Shown here in pieces: positions 3,930 through 30,513 of a stretch of 31,404 nt of DNA. Below the pieces are notes generated by a model. That model had not been told where the DNA came from and ran no database searches. It was given only the letters and a program-made list of their open reading frames with translations. Numbering within the stretch: position 1 is the stretch's first letter; each line of letters begins with the position of its first letter. The stretch comes from a virus: IMG/VR virus record IMGVR_UViG_3300009098_000221, positions 1-31,404 of that record; one strand, given 5' to 3'. Made by a program: the position numbers and the translations under genes.

Positions 3930-4142
3930 CTACTCGCCTTCGGCGGGCGGGGGGCCACCAAACGTGGCCTGGAGCATCCGGCCGAACGTGGTGACAGCAC
4001 CGATGACGGCCGTGGCGATCACACACCACTTGCCCGTCGCGGGAAATTCGTGTTCGATGGCTGACACGATCGCGCCGGCGACACCCGCCCCGGAGAGCAG
4101 ATAGCCGACGATGGTGCCTAGCCCGACTGGTACCTGTTTCAT
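3930..4142 (-). CDS. Small two-helix membrane protein, holin candidate
   Basis: A 70-residue protein with two hydrophobic segments, about residues 6-26 (VGLGTIVGYLLSGAGVAGAIV) and 38-54 (KWCVIATAVIGAVTTFG), and a short acidic tail. Size, topology and position directly upstream of the M15 endolysin fit a holin, the protein that opens the inner membrane so that endolysin can reach the wall. Five other small membrane proteins are encoded just upstream, so holin, antiholin and spanin roles cannot be assigned with certainty. Confidence 0.75.
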   Translation of the reverse strand: MKQVPVGLGTIVGYLLSGAGVAGAIVSAIEHEFPATGKWCVIATAVIGAVTTFGRMLQATFGGPPPAEGE

Positions 4143-4333: not shown

Positions 4334-4681
4334 TCACGGATGCGGGCCGCCCGCGATACCCCACAGCACGCCGACGGCCGCTATCACCGCGAACAGCAGT
4401 TGCCGCGCGTCCAAGCCGCCTGATCGACGTTCCGCCCGCAGCTCGCGCGTCAGCGCACCAAGATCGTTCTTCGTCGCATACGAACCACGCTCACTCTCGA
4501 TCTGCGACCGCAGCTCGTTCGCCTTCTCGTCCTTGTAGGTCTGGATCTCACGCGCGAGCCGTAACGCCTCCTGGTCGCCCTCGTTCTTGATCCGCAGCGC
4601 TTCCGCCCGCCCCTGCGCTTCGGCGGCGTACCGCCGGTCGCGCTCGTCCATAATCGCTTCGACGTGCCGCACGCGCCACAC
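4334..4681 (-). CDS. Coiled-coil protein with C-terminal membrane anchor
   Basis: A 115-residue protein with a long charged helix (ERDRRYAAEAQGRAEALRI through ELRAERRSG) and a single hydrophobic segment near residues 95-111 (LLFAVIAAVGVLWGIAG). The YATKNDLGALTRELR stretch is typical of a frequent actinophage membrane coiled-coil protein found beside lysis genes. The start is uncertain: GTG 4681 keeps the conserved ERDRRY region, while ATG 4651 is an alternative. Neither has a clear ribosome site. Function unknown; possibly a holin partner. Confidence 0.7.
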   Translation of the reverse strand: MWRVRHVEAIMDERDRRYAAEAQGRAEALRIKNEGDQEALRLAREIQTYKDEKANELRSQIESERGSYATKNDLGALTRELRAERRSGGLDARQLLFAVIAAVGVLWGIAGGPHP

Positions 4682-5683: not shown

Positions 5684-6868
5684 CTAGCTACGCCCGAGCC
5701 GTTCGATAAACGACTGGAACTGTCGGCCTGCTCGCGTCCGTTCACCCTCCCGGTAGCCGGTCGTGGCTTTCGCGAGCGTCTGGCCGCCCTGGCGTGTCCC
5801 GAACCCGATCTCGATCCCGGTGCCGTGTGAGGCGTACCGGCCGATCCGCTGGCCCGCACGGACCCGCTGCCCCGCACGGACTTCCGGGGCGATCTGCTCG
5901 GCGGTGAAGACGACTTTGCCCTTCGCGGGGCCGTCCAGCAGTTCGTAATAGACGTAGGGCTGTCCCTGAAACCAGTTGGGGCTGATCCCCAGTACCTTCG
6001 CGTTGCCGATCGCCCGGATTGGCGCCCCCGGCTGGGCTGAGTAGTCCACGCCCTGGTCGGTGCGGCCTTTCGCGAACCCCGGCACAGGGTTGACGTAGTG
6101 ACCGCCGTGTTCGCCCGCGACTTCATGCGCCGGCGTCCACGCGCCTTCTTCGCCGCTCTCACCCTGCGGTTCGGTGGCGAGCGAGGCGATAAGCGAAGCC
6201 AGATCGGTGCGCTGCGGTTCGGGTGCGGCCTGCGCCACTTTCGGGGTCGCGAAGCCTTTCGTTTCCGTGGGCCTGGCGACGTGCATCGGAGCGGCCTGTT
6301 CCTTCGGCGCCAACAGCGCCTGTAGCACCTGGAGGTTCACCGGAGACTGCGCTTCAGGTTCACCGCCAGAGGCCGTTTGCGGGCGTTCTGACGCCCCGCG
6401 AGCCGGACCTTCGGCGCCACCCCCGAATCGTTCCCCGCCGAGTTCGTGAAAGCCCGCATGGAGAATCCCGCCACCGTTGTAATGCGAGCTCGCCCACGGG
6501 CTGTTCACGATCGCCTGGATCTGCGCGCCCGGGTCATGCCCGGCCGTTCTCAGGATCGCCATGATCCCCGGCGCCGGCCTACCGTATTCCCTCGCGATCT
6601 GCCCCTGGCCCCTCAGCCATTCCGCTGTCGCCCGCCCGGCGGACTCGGGGTTGGCCCACACGTTCGAGTGAGCGCCGTGCGCGTCGCCGGAATCGGTCCT
6701 GGCGATGTTCAGGAAGTTGTAGTAGCCGCGGCGTTCGTAGCCAGAGGCGGGGCCGCCGGCGCCGCCCTCCTCGGCTTTCGCCCACGCGCCCACCACGCGC
6801 GGGTCAAGCCCTGTGTGTCGGGCGAGAGTCTGCACGAAACGTCGCTGCCCGGAGCCGAGGACAGCCAT
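5684..6868 (-). CDS. Virion-associated wall-degrading protein with lysozyme-like and degenerate M23-like domains
   Basis: The 394-residue product begins with a lysozyme/glucosaminidase-like domain (1-140). A glutamate pair at 33-34 lies in AWAKAEEGG and is followed by YYNFLNIA at 49-56 and a WANPESAGRATAEWL helix. After a flexible Ala/Pro/Glu linker (145-250) comes an M23-like fold at about 258-360: GRTDQGVDYS, PGAPIRAIGNAKV, VRAGQRVRAGQRIG and GTGIEIGFG. In active M23 enzymes the first motif is H-x-G-x-D and the last is HxH. Here D271 replaces the first His and the HxH is absent, so zinc binding and peptidase activity are doubtful. Its place after the ejection-protein genes suggests a virion protein that opens the wall during entry. 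Confidence 0.8.
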   Translation of the reverse strand: MAVLGSGQRRFVQTLARHTGLDPRVVGAWAKAEEGGAGGPASGYERRGYYNFLNIARTDSGDAHGAHSNVWANPESAGRATAEWLRGQGQIAREYGRPAPGIMAILRTAGHDPGAQIQAIVNSPWASSHYNGGGILHAGFHELGGERFGGGAEGPARGASERPQTASGGEPEAQSPVNLQVLQALLAPKEQAAPMHVARPTETKGFATPKVAQAAPEPQRTDLASLIASLATEPQGESGEEGAWTPAHEVAGEHGGHYVNPVPGFAKGRTDQGVDYSAQPGAPIRAIGNAKVLGISPNWFQGQPYVYYELLDGPAKGKVVFTAEQIAPEVRAGQRVRAGQRIGRYASHGTGIEIGFGTRQGGQTLAKATTGYREGERTRAGRQFQSFIERLGRS

Positions 6869-15214: not shown

Positions 15215-16345
15215 CTAGCCGGTGACTCCCGACAGCACCGCGTGACGGCGCTGGAGGCCGAACTGAAGGCCAGCCTCCGTCAGGAACTCGGCCTTGTGGC
15301 CGTCCTGGTCGGGGGGCTGGATCTCCGTGCGGAGTTTCGTGTCACGGTTGGGGATCGGCCGGTACTTGACCTCATCGAGATCGAGGATGATCCCGTAGCC
15401 GCCGTACTTGCTGCCTTCCAGCAGACGGTGGTAGATGACCCGCACCGAGCCGAACGGGCCACCGTAGGTGGTGACGTTCATGCCGTAGTGCGTCTCGCCG
15501 CTGTTGACGATCTGCTTGGACGCCGGGAACTTGTTCAGCGCCGAAACGACCGTCGCCGAAGCGAGGATCACCTTGTTCGTGCCGCCGTAGCGGAACGCCT
15601 GCTGCAAAGCCGCGTTCCACTCGGTTTCTGACAGGGTGCCCCCGGCATCCGTCTGGTTGGACGTGATGAACGACAGCGCGCCGCCCGTTGTCCGGTCCTC
15701 GGTGGCCCCGGGGTTCGTGGCGGATTTGCGGCCGAACAGCAACGAAAGCTCGATGTCCTTCGCGTGCTCGATCGCGGCGTTCTGGTTCAGCCGGTCCCAC
15801 TCGCGCGGGGACACCATGTACCCCACGTTCTTCGCGGTGTCCGAGATTTCGAACGGCGTCCGGAAGATCTGCGTGTAGTTTTCGACCACCGAAGGGGTCT
15901 TGCTACGCGCAGGCTTGCTGGTGTCGTTCTCCGGCTGGGCGGTCCCGATGATCTGGAGCTCGTCGCCTTCCAGGATCGTCGCCGCCGTCGAGCCGATGCC
16001 GCGTGTCACGGTGAGCGTGTTACCGGCCACCGAGTCCACCCGGACCTGCTCGCCCGTGCGGGTCACGAGCACCTGGTCCCACGACTGGAAGTAGGTGCCG
16101 TGAGACACTTTGACTTCCGTCGCTGACGACGATGCTTCCGCGGTCGTCGTGTCGAACCGGGCCTTCGCTTCGTCCTCGACCCACTTGAACTTCGTGGCCT
16201 GGGTGTCTTCCTTGCCCAGCTCGCGGGTCAGGACCGTCAGAACCTGGACGTCGGGCTCCAACAGGCTGATGCGTTTGCCGATGTCGATGCTGAGCTGGTT
16301 GCTCAGCACGTTGGTTGTGGTCATCGCGCCAGTGACTGTCGCCAT
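15215..16345 (-). CDS. Major capsid protein, DUF5309/SU10-type
   Basis: The 376-residue product begins MATVTGAMTTTNVLSNQL, followed by SIDIGKRISLLEPDVQVLTVL. A beta insertion covers residues 60-130 (VKVSHGTYFQSWDQVLVTRTG). The VENYTQIFRTPFEISDTAKN region and the C-terminal YHRLLEGSKYGGYGIILDLD, typical of the DUF5309 (SU10 major capsid) family, are present. A very strong AAAGGAGG ribosome site lies four bases before the ATG. It is preceded by a scaffold-like gene and followed by a GC-rich hairpin, the usual arrangement for an abundant capsid protein. The family call is from recognition of the sequence style and has not been tested by search. Confidence 0.85.
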   Translation of the reverse strand: MATVTGAMTTTNVLSNQLSIDIGKRISLLEPDVQVLTVLTRELGKEDTQATKFKWVEDEAKARFDTTTAEASSSATEVKVSHGTYFQSWDQVLVTRTGEQVRVDSVAGNTLTVTRGIGSTAATILEGDELQIIGTAQPENDTSKPARSKTPSVVENYTQIFRTPFEISDTAKNVGYMVSPREWDRLNQNAAIEHAKDIELSLLFGRKSATNPGATEDRTTGGALSFITSNQTDAGGTLSETEWNAALQQAFRYGGTNKVILASATVVSALNKFPASKQIVNSGETHYGMNVTTYGGPFGSVRVIYHRLLEGSKYGGYGIILDLDEVKYRPIPNRDTKLRTEIQPPDQDGHKAEFLTEAGLQFGLQRRHAVLSGVTG

Positions 16346-18694: not shown

Positions 18695-20587
18695 CTAGTG
18701 CATCCCTTCCGGTGACGGGATCTGCTCCGCAACCTGCTGTGCCGCCGGGCCTTCCTGCGGCGCAGAGACTTCACGCGCCCGCAGGACAGCCTGGATGAGC
18801 CGGTTCGGGTCCACACCATCGTTGAGCAGGAACCGCAGGGCGACCAGCGGCACATTCGGTGTCGGGTCACGCAGCCACGCCTGGGGGTGTTTGATCCCCA
18901 TTTTTTCCATCGCGAACAGACGCGCCTTCGTCGGGTTGATGTACCAGTCGTGCGCCAACGCCTGAAGGATCTGGTTCGCGTCCGCGCGTTCCTGCGGCGT
19001 GTTTTTCGCCGCCATGCTGCCGCCGTCCACTTCGATCGTCCACTCGCCCTCAAGCTGTTCGGGGCCGACCGGGAACCATTTCCACTCCCCCGCCTCCGAC
19101 GCCTCGCTGCGGTCCATCCCTTCCTGGGGCTGGCGCATCTGGCGCTGAGCGGTGATCATCCTCTGGTCCATGTGCAAGAAGCACCGGGCGACTTCACGGA
19201 CAACCTCGATCTCAAACCGGCGAGAGGTCAGCTCGATACGCCGGCCGAGCGAAGCCTGCGAAAGCTGCGCCTCTGTCGCGGTCGAGGACGACGGGCCGGG
19301 GTGGTTGTCCAGCGCGTCGGTCATCCCGGACACCGCTTCGATGTTCGACAGGATCGCCTGCTCCTCCTCATAGCCCGACCCCGGGAGGTCTTTCGCTTCG
19401 ACCCTGCGAAGCGCCGTGTTCACGTCCGCGTTAGCGACCGGGATCGCCTGTTCGGGGCCGAACACAAGATCCTCCGGGTCCACCGAGGCCGAGTCGTACA
19501 CCCACGGGGCGTTCAGCGTCAGGGTGGCGGCGTTGCGGCGCTGTGAGCGCAGGCTGTCGAGCTCGCGCTGCAAGTGCCAGATCGGCTCAAGGCTGCCGAT
19601 CCCGACCATCTCGTGCGGCATCGGGGTGGGCCGAAACACCTGGAACGGGATCTCCCCACACGGGTTCTCGCCTTCCTGGACCAGCACCTGCCGGTCAAGC
19701 ACGGAGAGCACCATGTCGCCGTTGTGGAACTCCAACAGTTCGTGCGGGCGGTCCTGGCCCATGTTCGTCGCGCTGAACGACGGCAGGCCAGCGGTGGTCA
19801 TCCGGCGCTGCCACACTTCGTCATAGTGGGTGTTTGACCCGAGCCCTTTCACCTTGTCTTCATCGAGAAGCTGGGCCGATTCGGTGTTCCACGCTTTCGT
19901 TTCGAGCTGTTTCATGCAGCGGTCCACCGACAGCCAGACCCGGTGAATGACCCACTCGCAGGAGGCGATGTCATAGCCGCGGGAGTCCCACATGAAGTCG
20001 CGTATGTCGATCGCTTCGAAGAACGGGTCATCGAAGTGGACGTACGGTTCGCGGTTTGAGAGGTTGTAGCCGAGGTCCAGCGTGTTGCGCTGCATCCTGC
20101 GGCGGAACTTGACCTCGTGCTTCCAGTAGCTCTTGCCGACCCCCAGGCCGTAGATGTGGCCTGAGCGCATGACCTCCTGGAACGGTAGGTCGATGTTGAT
20201 CTGTTCCTGCTGGGCGTTGATCAGCATCTTGACCGCCCGCACGTTTTCGACCCACTGTTCATCACGGGGCTCGACCAGCAGTTTCGGCATGTTCGCGATC
20301 GCCCTCGGGACGATCGTCTCGACGGTCCTGAAGCTCAGCGGGATGTGGAGTTCCGCACCCCAGGTCTGTTTGGCGTCGTAGATGAGCCCGTCGCGGTCAC
20401 GCGGCCCGGCCTGCACCCAGTTGTTCTGGAACTGCTTGAACCCCCGGTACTGTTCGTAACGCTGGTCGTTCTTGGTACGAAGATCGTTACCGAGTCCTTT
20501 TTCCCAGTCGTGGACCCGTCCGACGATCTGGCCGACAGCCTCAGCCTCGCCGGCGGGTGCCTGGTCCCACTGGATCGGCCCATACAT
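18695..20587 (-). CDS. Portal protein
   Basis: A 630-residue protein of the length expected for podovirus portals. It contains RTVETIVPRAIANMPKLLVE, a long central region with VGIGSLEPIWHLQRELDSLR and NAATLTLNAPWVYDSA, and a C-terminal helical, Gln-rich crown-like part. The portal forms the twelve-fold ring at one capsid vertex through which DNA is packaged and ejected. Its order, after terminase and before scaffold and capsid, supports the call. ATG 20587 overlaps the preceding stop (TGATG). Confidence 0.82.
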   Translation of the reverse strand: MYGPIQWDQAPAGEAEAVGQIVGRVHDWEKGLGNDLRTKNDQRYEQYRGFKQFQNNWVQAGPRDRDGLIYDAKQTWGAELHIPLSFRTVETIVPRAIANMPKLLVEPRDEQWVENVRAVKMLINAQQEQINIDLPFQEVMRSGHIYGLGVGKSYWKHEVKFRRRMQRNTLDLGYNLSNREPYVHFDDPFFEAIDIRDFMWDSRGYDIASCEWVIHRVWLSVDRCMKQLETKAWNTESAQLLDEDKVKGLGSNTHYDEVWQRRMTTAGLPSFSATNMGQDRPHELLEFHNGDMVLSVLDRQVLVQEGENPCGEIPFQVFRPTPMPHEMVGIGSLEPIWHLQRELDSLRSQRRNAATLTLNAPWVYDSASVDPEDLVFGPEQAIPVANADVNTALRRVEAKDLPGSGYEEEQAILSNIEAVSGMTDALDNHPGPSSSTATEAQLSQASLGRRIELTSRRFEIEVVREVARCFLHMDQRMITAQRQMRQPQEGMDRSEASEAGEWKWFPVGPEQLEGEWTIEVDGGSMAAKNTPQERADANQILQALAHDWYINPTKARLFAMEKMGIKHPQAWLRDPTPNVPLVALRFLLNDGVDPNRLIQAVLRAREVSAPQEGPAAQQVAEQIPSPEGMH

Positions 20588-23131: not shown

Positions 23132-25057
23132 CTACCAACCTGATATCGGATCGGTGGGACGCCACGCCTGACGCTTGGACTTCGGGCGCGGCGGCTGGTA
23201 CTTGTCCATCACCGCACACGCGATCATCGCGCTCACCAGGCGGTCGTCATGCTCGCCGGCCTGCGCCTCGTGCTTGCCGCGCTCGGTGATCACATAGGTC
23301 TGCAACTGGCGGGCCGTCTTCAGATCCCTCACGCCGTGCGTGTCGTCGCGCAGCGCCTCGGCGAAACTGCCCTCCATCCACGGCTTGCTCTGGGCGTCGG
23401 TCTTCCAACCGGGCTTCTGTTCCTGGTCCTCTTTCAGCGTGCCGAGCCGGGAGCGCTTGATCAGCTTCGGGTAGCGGAACGTGTTCTTCAACGTCTCCAC
23501 CACGTAGATCCCGGGGCCGTTGATCTCGGGGGCCAGCCACGCATTGTTGTAGTAGAGGGCGGTGAGGAGTACGAGTTCCGGCAGCTCGTCCAGGTCCGCG
23601 CGGGACTCGTGGACAGCGGCCTGCTCGCGGGTGCGGTGGTTCCAGACCTGGATCACATGGAAGTCCCCGTCGGTGAACGTGTTCGACCGGCCTTCCGCCA
23701 CATCCACCGCGACAACATAGGCGCCATCCTCGGTGATGTCGTCCGTTTCCCCGGCCTTCTTGGGCTGCTCCCACACATCCAGCCGCGGCATCCCCGGGGC
23801 TAGGTCAGACGGGGGAACCCAGATGGCCTCTGTCGGGACGATCACCGTGCCGCCCTTCGTCCTGCGCTCCGTCTTGGCGCCCGCGCGTAGGCTGCCGGTG
23901 ACGGGTTTCGGGGCTTCCTCGGCGGCACGGATCGCCTTGGACACCAGGATCGAGGAGAACACGGTGCGGCCGGACCCTATGAACGCCTCCTCGTCCGACG
24001 CCGGGTTCTCCTGCTTGAACAGCTCGACGTTCGATTCGTGCTGCTCTCGGATCATCCGCCGGCGCCACAACAGTTGCTCGGGGGTGCAGCCGTACAGGTC
24101 GATCAGTGCCTGCTCGGCCTCCGCGATCTCCCCCAAACGGTTCTCGTCACCGATCGTTTCCACGAACCGTTCACGGTCCTCGACCGTCGGGAAGGCCTGG
24201 GAGCAGTCGGGGTCGCGCCACCACGGGATGAAGATCGCCGCGTAGGACTCGCCGCTGTCGGGGTCTGCCTGCCCGTCGCGTGCGGACAGCCACCGCTTGT
24301 GGAAATGGTTCAGGCCGTTGGCGGTGGACTCGATCACCACGATCGTCTCAGGCACATACGGCACGGCGTTCATCAGCCCGGATACCTTTCGGGTGACGGC
24401 GTTGGGCTCATACCAGGCGTACTCGGACAGGTGAAGCATCGTCGGGGTCAGCCCGCGCCCCGAGTCGGGTGTGCCTGCGGTGTCAACCTCGAACACGCTG
24501 GACCCGGTGCGCCCGAGTTCCCTTGACCGTTTGGACGCCTCCCCGAACGTCATGAACTTCCGGCCGTTCAGGGACTCGGACTGGCCGATGATCGGGGGCT
24601 TGACGTTGAACCCGAGGCCGAACTGCTCGATCGACGGCAGATGCGCCCACGCCGTCTTTGCCATGCTCAGGATGTACCCGGCCGTTTTTACGTCCTGGGC
24701 GACGATGATCCCGTGCTGGTACTCGATCATCGTCAGCCGCTGGAGGAACTTCATCGCGACCCATGTGGACATGCCGGTCTTGCGGGCCTTGCAGATGATG
24801 GCCCGCATCGGTTTGTCCGCGGCGCGCTGGTTCTCCAGGGCTTCGTCTAGCTCAAGCTGCCACGGGCGGGCGACCAAGGGGACGAGTTTGCCGCCCTGCT
24901 TGGGCAGGATTTTGACGAGCCCCTGGAACTCTTTCGGCCCCGGGGTGTGCCACTGGCCGTCGTCGGTGCGGTAGACACCCCCGGCCCAGAAGGGGGTGTC
25001 GTACCTGAACCTGTCTTCGAGGGCTTGGCGCTGCTCGCCGGTTAGCCCTCTGGGCAC
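23132..25057 (-). CDS. terL: Terminase large subunit (packaging ATPase and nuclease)
   Basis: A 641-residue protein with all expected parts. The Walker A variant is CKARKTGMST (89-98), the Walker B-like motif is MLHLSEYAWY (207-216) and the coupling motif is TIVVIESTANG (238-248). The RNase-H-like nuclease domain has D451 in VVAVDVAEG, E510 in APEINGPG and D603/D604 in GEHDDRLVSA. It pumps DNA into the prohead through the portal and cuts it at the end. The GTG start lies five bases after the previous stop, with no strong ribosome site, which suggests coupled translation. The terminase family is clear, though the packaging mode (cos or pac) cannot be read from it. Confidence 0.97.
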   Translation of the reverse strand: MPRGLTGEQRQALEDRFRYDTPFWAGGVYRTDDGQWHTPGPKEFQGLVKILPKQGGKLVPLVARPWQLELDEALENQRAADKPMRAIICKARKTGMSTWVAMKFLQRLTMIEYQHGIIVAQDVKTAGYILSMAKTAWAHLPSIEQFGLGFNVKPPIIGQSESLNGRKFMTFGEASKRSRELGRTGSSVFEVDTAGTPDSGRGLTPTMLHLSEYAWYEPNAVTRKVSGLMNAVPYVPETIVVIESTANGLNHFHKRWLSARDGQADPDSGESYAAIFIPWWRDPDCSQAFPTVEDRERFVETIGDENRLGEIAEAEQALIDLYGCTPEQLLWRRRMIREQHESNVELFKQENPASDEEAFIGSGRTVFSSILVSKAIRAAEEAPKPVTGSLRAGAKTERRTKGGTVIVPTEAIWVPPSDLAPGMPRLDVWEQPKKAGETDDITEDGAYVVAVDVAEGRSNTFTDGDFHVIQVWNHRTREQAAVHESRADLDELPELVLLTALYYNNAWLAPEINGPGIYVVETLKNTFRYPKLIKRSRLGTLKEDQEQKPGWKTDAQSKPWMEGSFAEALRDDTHGVRDLKTARQLQTYVITERGKHEAQAGEHDDRLVSAMIACAVMDKYQPPRPKSKRQAWRPTDPISGW

Positions 25058-27683: not shown

Positions 27684-27844
27684 CAGGAACCAGCACCTTT
27701 CTCGAAAGATCGGCACCAAGGGAACGCGCATGAGCCTCTGCGCGAAGAACGGCCTCGTCGCGCGTCGGTGCGCCCGAGCGAGTGCCCGCGCGGGGATAGG
27801 TCGTGCGTTCCGCCCGCCACCCCGCACAACCCCTGCACGATCAC
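27683..27844 (-). CDS. Candidate 53-residue small protein
   Basis: A 54-codon frame exactly fills the gap between two genes. GTG 27844 overlaps the upstream stop (GTGA), and its TGA overlaps the next ATG (TGATG). The peptide (VIVQGLCGVAGGTHDLSP onward) is Gly/Arg/Ser-rich and not strongly protein-like, so it may only be a linker in the message. Confidence 0.35.
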   Translation of the reverse strand: MIVQGLCGVAGGTHDLSPRGHSLGRTDARRGRSSRRGSCAFPWCRSFEKGAGS

Positions 27845-28032
27845 TTCGGAGCCTTACCCGAACCGAACGTCACCCCGTCAGCCGGCCTAGGCCCAACCGC
27901 CTGGATCACCGAGTTCCGCCGCCAGTTGCGGGCACGCGCCAGCCTGTGCTCAGGCTTCAACTTCAACACCCTCGCCCGGGTCGCATCATCCAGCCACGCC
28001 AGGTACGCCGTGATGAGCTCGTCGTCGGTCAA
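27841..28032 (-). CDS. 63-residue partner of the ribbon-helix-helix gene
   Basis: ATG 28032 overlaps the stop of the ribbon-helix-helix gene (ATGA). The product has an acidic-then-helical N-terminus (TDDELITAYLAWLDDATRA) and a basic middle (LARARNWRRNSVIQAVG). The coupled pair of a small DNA-binding protein and a tiny partner resembles a toxin-antitoxin or regulator/accessory pair. No toxin fold can be seen. Confidence 0.6.
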   Translation of the reverse strand: MTDDELITAYLAWLDDATRARVLKLKPEHRLARARNWRRNSVIQAVGPRPADGVTFGSGKAPK

Positions 28033-28259
28033 TGCCCCGGCCTCAGATACTCCGGCAGCGCCTCGACCTCGGCCACCGCATCCTCGGCCCGCAGCTTGCC
28101 ATGCAACGTCCGCGCAGGCACCGACCTATCCACAGCATCCACGCACACCCCCAACCGCAACCTCGCCGCCTCCCGCAACCAGTCATTGCGAGACACCCCA
28201 CCACGAGCACCATCAATCGCGACCAGCTCATCCGGCGGCAACCTGAGATTCACCTGCAC
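28029..28259 (-). CDS. Ribbon-helix-helix DNA-binding protein
   Basis: The N-terminus VQVNLRLPPDELVAID followed by SRNDWLREAARLRLG is a clear ribbon-helix-helix (CopG/Arc-type) pattern: one beta strand and two helices. A C-terminal extension of about 40 residues follows, possibly for binding the 63-residue partner. GGAGG lies five bases before GTG 28259, so I favour that start (76 residues); ATG 28262 and ATG 28271 are in frame. The promoter and GGTACC boxes just upstream suggest that it represses its own transcription. Confidence 0.8.
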   Translation of the reverse strand: MQVNLRLPPDELVAIDGARGGVSRNDWLREAARLRLGVCVDAVDRSVPARTLHGKLRAEDAVAEVEALPEYLRPGH

Positions 28260-28272
28260 CATAGCCTCCATA

Positions 28273-28349
28273 TAGCTACCTATGGTACCACCGGCCCCTG
28301 AAGCTGTCAATAGGTACCACTACAGCCCCACCACAGTCATAGGTACCTA
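28273..28349. repeat. 29-bp-spaced GGTACC operator or iteron-like boxes
   Basis: GGTACC occurs at 28284-28289, 28313-28318 and 28342-28347, exactly 29 bases apart each time, within ATAGGTACC or TATGGTACC contexts. The third is a perfect 10-base palindrome, TAGGTACCTA (28340-28349). A one-mismatch relative, TAGCTACCTA, lies at 28273-28282. The boxes overlap the -10 and the upstream edge of the -35 of the RHH promoter. Confidence 0.8.
28282..28310 (-). promoter_or_regulatory. Promoter of the RHH gene
   Basis: On the minus strand a perfect TTGACA (28310-28305) is followed after 17 bases by TACCAT (28287-28282, 4 of 6 match to TATAAT). GGAGG and the start codon follow within 25 bases. Confidence 0.7.
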
Positions 28350-28643: not shown

Positions 28644-29117
28644 TTACGTGTGGTGGCGAGGATGCTGTTGGCGAGGGTGCTGCCTATGGGGGCTTCTGCT
28701 GGCTGTGTCGATGGTGCGGTTGAGGCGGCGTTGTTCTTTGCCGGGTATGGCGGCGGCCTCTCTCACACAGCGTGCCCATTCCTTGGCTAGTTTCGGGTCG
28801 CCTTTGCCTTTTCGGCTTTCTAGTGCGGTTAGTTCACGGTCGGCGAGGGAGAGCAGGCGTTGTCTTATGTGCTCGTTTGCGTCTGCTGCGGGCATGGTGG
28901 CGAGTGGGCTTTTGTCTTTGCCGGCCCTGCGTTTCTTGGCTGCCCTGGCGATGTAGGCGACTGAGCTGTAGGGGATTGTGAAGGGCTCTAGCTGGCTGTC
29001 TAAACGGCCGTTTTCGGCTCTGCGTTGGATCTCTGCGAGGGATAGGCGGCCGGATAGGGCGGCTGTCTCGATTGCGTGGCGTTGCTCTGTGGAGTAGACC
29101 GGCGTCCAGTTGCCCAT
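28644..29117 (-). CDS. Terminase small subunit-like helix-turn-helix protein
   Basis: From ATG 29117 the product is 157 residues. The N-terminal part (YSTEQRHAIETAALSGRLSL, AEIQRRAENG, FTIPYSSVAYIARAAKKRR) has the helix-turn-helix layout seen in actinophage small terminase subunits. A helical oligomerisation-like region follows (LLSLADRELTALES, LAKEWARCVREAAAIPG), then a His/Arg/Gln-rich tail (SPHRQHPRQQHPRHHT). TerS recognises phage DNA for packaging. It lies 3.6 kb upstream of terL instead of next to it. No ribosome site precedes the ATG. A general regulator is the alternative. Confidence 0.6.
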   Translation of the reverse strand: MGNWTPVYSTEQRHAIETAALSGRLSLAEIQRRAENGRLDSQLEPFTIPYSSVAYIARAAKKRRAGKDKSPLATMPAADANEHIRQRLLSLADRELTALESRKGKGDPKLAKEWARCVREAAAIPGKEQRRLNRTIDTASRSPHRQHPRQQHPRHHT

Positions 29118-29188: not shown

Positions 29189-29206
29189 TGTCAATGGGCC
29201 TTGACA
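29189..29206. promoter_or_regulatory. Palindrome overlapping the -35 of the plus-strand operon
   Basis: TGTCAA-N6-TTGACA is a perfect 6-bp inverted repeat. Its right arm is the -35 box of the plus-strand promoter, and its left arm gives a TTGACA on the minus strand. A repressor bound here would block the promoter. Confidence 0.5.
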
Positions 29207-29229
29207 AGCATGAGGCGATGGTGTAGAAC
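29201..29229 (+). promoter_or_regulatory. Sigma70-type promoter of the plus-strand operon
   Basis: TTGACA (29201-29206), exactly 17 bases, then TAGAAC (29224-29229). A leader of about 35 bases ends in GGGAGG before ATG 29270. The perfect -35 suggests early expression by host polymerase. Confidence 0.75.
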
Positions 29230-29269: not shown

Positions 29270-29842
29270 ATGAGCGCATACATGGTCGATAAGGACCACG
29301 TTGATTTCCTGGTCCAGTCGGCAATCGCCGGCGCAACTGACAGCCGGGGCTGGGAGTCGCCTCACGGAGGTTTCTCTTGGTTCCACGATGGGACGCGATA
29401 CAGCGTCAAGGCGCACCTGGACGAGCCCGAGCGGGTATCGGCCTACTCCGTCGAGATCCCGCCGAGCACGTTGGGACAGCGGCTCGCGGATACAAACGCC
29501 GACAGCATCCACGCGCGCTACCCGGACACCGTTGATGATCCGTCAGCGATGCCCGGGCCGCTCGATCACTACTGGGAGCCTTACGTCTTCGAGCCCGTGG
29601 ACACTGGGCGCGAAGTGTTCAGCATCGGCGCGGGGTTGAAGCTCGCGGTCCAGCCCATCGCGTCAACCGCTGTAGTAGCCGCACAGCTCAACCACTACGA
29701 ATACCAGGCCTGCGAGCACGATGGGTGGAAGGACTCGGAGATGCGCGCGTTCATCGACGCGATGCGCGAGCGGCTTCTCTCCACGCTGCCGGGCGCCGAG
29801 GCTGCACCGTGGGGCTTCACGCGGACAGGGCAGGCTGCGTAG
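29270..29842 (+). CDS. Conserved phage protein, first gene of the plus-strand operon
   Basis: A 190-residue protein from ATG 29270, nine bases after GGGAGG. It contains FSWFHDGTRYSVKAHLDEPE, LGQRLADTNADSIHARYPDT and a YVFEPVDTGREVF..LKLAVQPI region. The LGQ.L...N..S..ARY pattern is shared with many actinophage proteins of unknown role that are made early. The acidic, mixed alpha/beta composition has no catalytic signature. It is followed by a 127-base gap with no gene beyond a five-codon frame. Confidence 0.75.
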   Translation: MSAYMVDKDHVDFLVQSAIAGATDSRGWESPHGGFSWFHDGTRYSVKAHLDEPERVSAYSVEIPPSTLGQRLADTNADSIHARYPDTVDDPSAMPGPLDHYWEPYVFEPVDTGREVFSIGAGLKLAVQPIASTAVVAAQLNHYEYQACEHDGWKDSEMRAFIDAMRERLLSTLPGAEAAPWGFTRTGQAA

Positions 29843-30303: not shown

Positions 30304-30513
30304 GTGTTGAGCATCGCAAGCCGTGAATGGCACGAACGCGAGATCGCCAAGTGGCAGCGCCTGCTACGGGAGGCCGAAAAGGCTGTCCACGGGCACGAGG
30401 AGCTGCGTGCCAAGGCGATCCGGGATGCGCTGGACGCCGGGTTGAAAGCGCCGGCGATAGCGAAGATCACGGGGCTTTCCAGGCAGCGGATACACCAGCT
30501 AAAGCAGCCGTAG
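30304..30513 (+). CDS. Helix-turn-helix regulator, end of the plus-strand operon
   Basis: A 69-residue protein from GTG 30304, with AGGAG four bases upstream. An N-terminal charged helix (REWHEREIAKWQRLLREAE) is followed by a helix-turn-helix: LDAGLKAPAIAKITGLSRQR then IHQLKQP. The pattern AGL..P.IA..TGLSRQRI is like sigma region 4 and small repressor domains. It could bind the palindrome at 29189-29206 or the dyads at 28497-28528. It is followed by a hairpin terminator. Confidence 0.75.
   Translation: MLSIASREWHEREIAKWQRLLREAEKAVHGHEELRAKAIRDALDAGLKAPAIAKITGLSRQRIHQLKQP

Follow-up and report, generated by a model that had tools for sequence, protein, structure and literature searches.

The window, a 31,404-base stretch (65% G+C) from the record of an uncultured virus, carries a cluster of GGTACC boxes at the promoter of a gene for a short ribbon-helix-helix (RHH) protein. 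Comparison with diverged relatives suggests that these boxes are very probably operator sites for this protein, which is encoded immediately downstream and would thereby limit the expression of its own operon. Directly established are the boxes and the promoter, the order of the genes, the RHH homologues in diverged relatives and the concentration of GGTACC at the starts of their genes.

Boxes, promoter and RHH protein of the window

Three GGTACC hexamers lie exactly 29 bp apart at 28284-28289 (box 1), 28313-28318 (box 2) and 28342-28347 (box 3), where the sequence-only reading had placed them. The two further elements of that reading are also present: box 3 lies within a perfect 10-bp palindrome, TAGGTACCTA (28340-28349), and a variant with one mismatch to it, TAGCTACCTA, occupies 28273-28282, its core 9 bp from that of box 1. 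Relative to the start of the RHH gene, boxes 3, 2 and 1 are found at -88, -59 and -30, and the one-mismatch box at -21. Although the total of GGTACC in the 31.4 kb is at chance level (four, with a mean of 4.2 in shuffled sequences), three of the four are packed within 58 bp (P ~4e-5), and the fourth is far from the cluster, at 4129. In addition, among all hexamers of the window, only the boxes at 29-bp steps form an equally spaced triple; by Markov simulation, 0.64 such triples would be expected for any hexamer and 0.07 for palindromes, and, given three boxes in such a span, equal spacing has a probability of ~0.02. The GGTACC cluster of the window is real and not a product of chance.

The promoter, TTGACA-17-TACCAT (28282-28310, minus strand), reads leftward into the RHH gene (28029-28259, minus strand; 76 codons plus stop, starting MQVNLRLPPDELVAIDGAR), the product of which is the presumed binder of the boxes. 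As described earlier, its hexamers, TTGACA (28310-28305) and TACCAT (28287-28282), are separated by a 17-bp spacer and match the consensus at 10 of 12 positions. No other sigma-70-like match was found between 12.5 and 28.4 kb on either strand by a simple consensus scan, which other promoter types would escape. Transcription probably starts near 28275, ~7 nt past the -10, and a likely ribosome-binding site, GGAGG (28265-28269, minus strand), lies 5 nt upstream of GTG at 28259, the probable start codon. The proposal that the boxes cover the -10 and touch the -35 holds in part: box 1 overlaps the -10 hexamer by 4 bp and the variant box lies over the predicted transcription start, whereas the hexamer of box 2 ends 2 bp upstream of the -35 and abuts it only through its TAGGTACC extension (28311-28318), and box 3, ~67-72 bp upstream of the start point, is outside the core promoter. 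Another promoter-like site, TTGACA-17-TAGAAC (29201-29229, plus strand), precedes a rightward gene at 29271, and GGTACC boxes are absent there.

The 76-residue protein (first residues MQVNLRLPPDELVAIDGARGGVSRNDWLREAARLRLG) was accepted as an RHH protein because of its structural pattern and profile matches, without reaching a curated threshold. Its score with Pfam RHH_1 is 13.5 bits, below the cut-off of 20.5, and a homologue described below (L086) reaches 19.4 bits, just under it. The strand-helix-helix order expected of the RHH fold is present in both predicted structures, a single-sequence model of low confidence (strand 2-6, helices 9-15 and 24-33) and a model from a five-member alignment (extended 1-8, helices 9-19 and 24-36, pLDDT ~70-83). 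Among solved RHH proteins, the family profile matched antitoxin Rv0298 (E 0.002) and, more weakly, EndoAI, YiiF and a CopG regulator; Foldseek, queried with a modest-confidence monomer model of an intertwined dimer, returned one non-significant match. Direct searches with the protein yielded no confirmed relative, either in IMG/VR or in bacterial genomes, and elsewhere one weak phage match and ten weak plasmid matches. The sole match of a literature search for RHH proteins with GGTACC concerns Helicobacter NikR.

Most of the phage packaging and structural genes of the window are carried on the minus strand. The gene for the terminase large subunit (TerL, 23132-25057, minus strand) lies downstream of the RHH gene and has the same direction, and the same set includes a portal-like gene (18695-20587) and the major head protein gene (15215-16345). 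Upstream of the RHH gene, a 157-residue gene (28644-29117, minus strand) occupies a small-terminase-like position and served as synteny anchor. On the other side, the TTG start of a 63-residue partner gene (27841-28032, minus strand) overlaps the RHH stop by 4 nt. A toxin-antitoxin operator, one of the options raised earlier, is disfavoured by this partner, a conserved protein without a toxin match: no PHROGs or NCBIfam entry matched it, nor did any Pfam family match its homologue in L091. No near DNA relative was found among annotated phages for the right-hand 6.4 kb of the window, and the TerL and capsid relatives among these phages are below 60% protein identity, at ~25-31% in the matches listed.

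Boxes and RHH genes in diverged relatives

A two-sequence TerL profile was used to scan IMG/VR, and ten relatives with TerL identities of 49-64% were obtained. The same profile found no relatives in bacterial genomes, and the 157-residue gene, alone or as a profile, revealed no further ones; a widespread 180-residue gene led to 78 loci, none with the RHH gene. A pattern search for triplets of GGTACC at exact 29-bp steps recovered only L004, a phage contig encoding a terminase-like protein, in which the boxes (480-570) lie in a repeat-rich stretch; this unrelated contig was rejected as a relative. Where the relatives' contigs extend far enough upstream, the order 157-residue gene, RHH gene, TerL is found. 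RHH homologues with 30-45% identity to the window protein are present in L088, L091, L093 and L095, and the 157-residue protein is 32-39% identical to its homologues in L091, L092, L093 and L095. A 63-residue-protein homologue is encoded downstream of the RHH gene(s) in L091 and L093; L093 also has a second short RHH-like gene (6640-6822), directly before this homologue.

The boxes proved to be tied to the RHH gene, as the sequence-only reading had supposed, and their loss from relatives that keep the gene, named there as grounds for refutation, was not observed. L095 has four GGTACC at -21, -12, +6 and +29 from its RHH start. In L093, one GGTACC is found at -67 of the first RHH gene, and boxes at -47, -37 (one mismatch) and -9 accompany the second; a 1.34-kb stretch that surrounds the RHH genes holds seven of the eight GGTACC in this 49-kb record. 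L091 has a single GGTACC at -86, and L088 has one-mismatch boxes (TGTACC, GGTATC and GGTACA) at -54, -45 and -36. Two of these arrangements count against the RHH protein as owner of the boxes: the lone box of L091 lies 50 bp upstream of its -35, and in L093 GGATATCC occurs twice between the GGTACC and the first RHH start, thus nearer to the start than the GGTACC itself.

As the window prompted the hypothesis, a fair test of enrichment leaves it out. In the relatives alone, 8 of 19 GGTACC fall within the 705 of 109,698 bases (0.64%) near RHH starts (p = 2e-13); as copies that share a contig do not arise independently, this value makes the evidence look somewhat stronger than it is. When all eleven family sequences are included, 11 of 23 fall within 846 of 141,102 bases, with 12 in the other 140,256, and GGTACC is the most enriched of the 64 palindromic hexamers near RHH starts. 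Stated conservatively, three separate relatives have boxes, and L088 has degenerate ones. Chance clustering of this KpnI hexamer, with which its expected-level total in the window would agree, is therefore a negligible prospect, as both the packing in the window and the independent recurrence in relatives speak against it.

The spacing of the boxes differs by lineage: 29, 29 and 9 bp in the window, 9, 18 and 23 in L095, 9 and 9 in L088, and 10 and 28 in L093. The 29-bp step is thus conserved in none of them and is no iteron signature, although the exact spacing had suggested one. It is very improbable that the boxes serve as iterons in an origin of phage replication. The annotated part of the window has no recognised replication gene, so the position of an origin is unconstrained; however, no initiator gene was recognised near the boxes, the palindromic units of 6-10 bp are short for iterons, and the boxes sit on a promoter and track the RHH gene. 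Nothing was found that points to an origin, the other form in which this idea had been put forward.

The boxes also lie between the 157-residue gene and TerL, a frequent place for packaging sites, and might be pac or cos sites for the small-terminase-like protein encoded at 28644-29117. A GC-rich stretch in the same gap, which looks conserved between relatives, would suit this explanation, but we consider it improbable on several grounds. L092 retains homologues of the 157-residue gene and TerL, followed after the former by a different RHH-like gene (read by eye), and GGTACC is absent throughout its 21-kb record; the boxes are thus better assigned to the RHH gene than to the putative small terminase. 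Furthermore, the boxes of L095 extend into the RHH coding start, those of L093 recur at the second RHH-like gene, plasmid RHH homologues with comparable boxes have no terminase among their annotated neighbours, and the 157-residue protein matches no annotated small-terminase family.

Other elements were noted in the same regions. The GC-rich element (roughly GGCACCCCCTGAGCGC), compared by eye between the 157-residue and RHH genes in several relatives (L093 ~6205-6250; L091 ~4415-4450; L092 ~1240; L095 ~2015) and in the window (minus strand, ~28436-28420), is itself a candidate cos or pac site. A CACGTATAAACGTG palindrome shortly after the 157-residue gene is common to L093 (~6081) and L095 (~1783). 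In L092, GTTTACA is repeated 17 bp apart (1310-1345) upstream of the different RHH-like gene, which starts at 1378.

RHH homologues on plasmids and a model for the operon

In a small set of sequences, the RHH profile matched proteins encoded beside C5-methyltransferase genes with E values of ~1e-9, namely in L085 and L086, of which one is a plasmid and one a faecal phage contig; the methyltransferase of L085 was assigned by resemblance, the record being unannotated. Two more plasmids (L100 and L101) again have an RHH gene before a methyltransferase gene, and the hosts of these plasmid genes are Pseudomonas, Burkholderia and Achromobacter. In all four, GGCGCC-ACAAT-GGCGCC is found directly before the RHH start (L085, 1442-1458; L086, 1441-1457; L100 and L101, 641-657). 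Whereas the three plasmids are closely similar, the phage contig has little in common with them upstream of the start apart from the GGCGCC pair, which therefore stands out as conserved and looks like the operator of the methyltransferase operon. These proteins resemble that of the window in a core that is ~46-54% identical and in two GGNNCC palindromes directly before the start; they differ in a box centre of CG instead of TA, a fixed 11-bp spacing and a methyltransferase as the next gene. A changed centre in the same GG...CC frame would fit RHH proteins and operators that vary together.

These homologues also bear on whether another regulator, a host factor or a different phage repressor, controls the RHH gene through the boxes. 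The window does encode a second candidate regulator, a helix-turn-helix protein (30304-30513, plus strand), which has at most one marginal match in the relatives found with TerL (L088). Such control seems unlikely, given that the boxes accompany RHH genes across the relatives, twice in L093, and that similar tandem GGNNCC boxes are found with RHH homologues on unrelated replicons.

Taken together, these observations point to the RHH protein, and we infer that it is the binder of the boxes, that its binding represses, and that the promoter serves genes beyond that of the 63-residue protein. With RHH dimers at the boxes, the start point and the -10 would be occluded and the -35 crowded, and RNA polymerase would thereby be blocked. 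Dimers would probably sit side by side on the variant box and box 1, the 9-bp pair that spans the start point and the -10, and further dimers would occupy boxes 2 and 3. The protein would thus restrain its own production together with the expression of the operon headed by its gene, in which the gene for the 63-residue protein and then the codirectional packaging and structural genes would follow. Autorepression of a promoter that heads a packaging and structural operon fits the anatomy better than a lysis/lysogeny switch, as which the region had also been considered. However, RHH operators account neither for the position of box 3 nor for the exact 29-bp steps.

The regulatory principle, RHH autoregulation, is already well known, and this would be an ordinary kind of gene control. 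Nevertheless, a testable pair of protein and operator is predicted here from sequence alone in a phage group without a near relative among the cultured phages searched, and the boxes sit at the probable point of activation of the packaging and structural genes. The RHH homologues, with boxes that differ from one to another (GGTACC, GGCGCC and possibly GGATATCC), also form a natural series in which shifts in RHH recognition could be studied. A more general hypothesis, which we offer tentatively and regard as rather doubtful, is that a small RHH family, distributed among uncultured phages and plasmids, recognises palindromes of the form GG-N2/4-CC (GGTACC, GGCGCC, perhaps GGATATCC), that its phage branch acts as a timing switch for packaging and structural operons, and that box sequence and spacing re-evolve with the protein in each lineage.

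Comparison with known RHH systems

In the met boxes of MetJ and the heptads of pSM19035 omega, RHH dimers bind several short adjoining sites, with steps of 8 bp and 7 bp, respectively. The 9-bp steps in L088, in L095 and in the 28273/28284 pair of the window resemble these arrays, whereas the main boxes of the window, 29 bp apart, are unlike them.

With the autoregulatory RHH repressors and antitoxins of the MetJ/Arc/CopG superfamily, the window shares a promoter followed directly by the gene for a short RHH protein, short palindromic sites in the -10 and start region and, as would be expected for its protein, readout by a beta sheet in the major groove. The RHH antitoxin MazE6, for example, binds over its own -10 (PMC9477884). 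Unlike the antitoxin systems, the window has no recognisable toxin partner, and it is set apart from the known repressors by GGTACC boxes with variable spacing and by a phage gene that heads a packaging and structural operon.

In AmrZ of Pseudomonas aeruginosa, also an RHH protein, the beta sheet reads GGC half sites, and the dimers on G-rich half sites in the major groove are comparable with what the GG...CC boxes of the window suggest (PMC3325190). Unlike the window protein and its boxes, AmrZ uses two half sites with a 5-bp linker as one operator, carries an additional C-terminal domain and controls many genes (PMC3325190).
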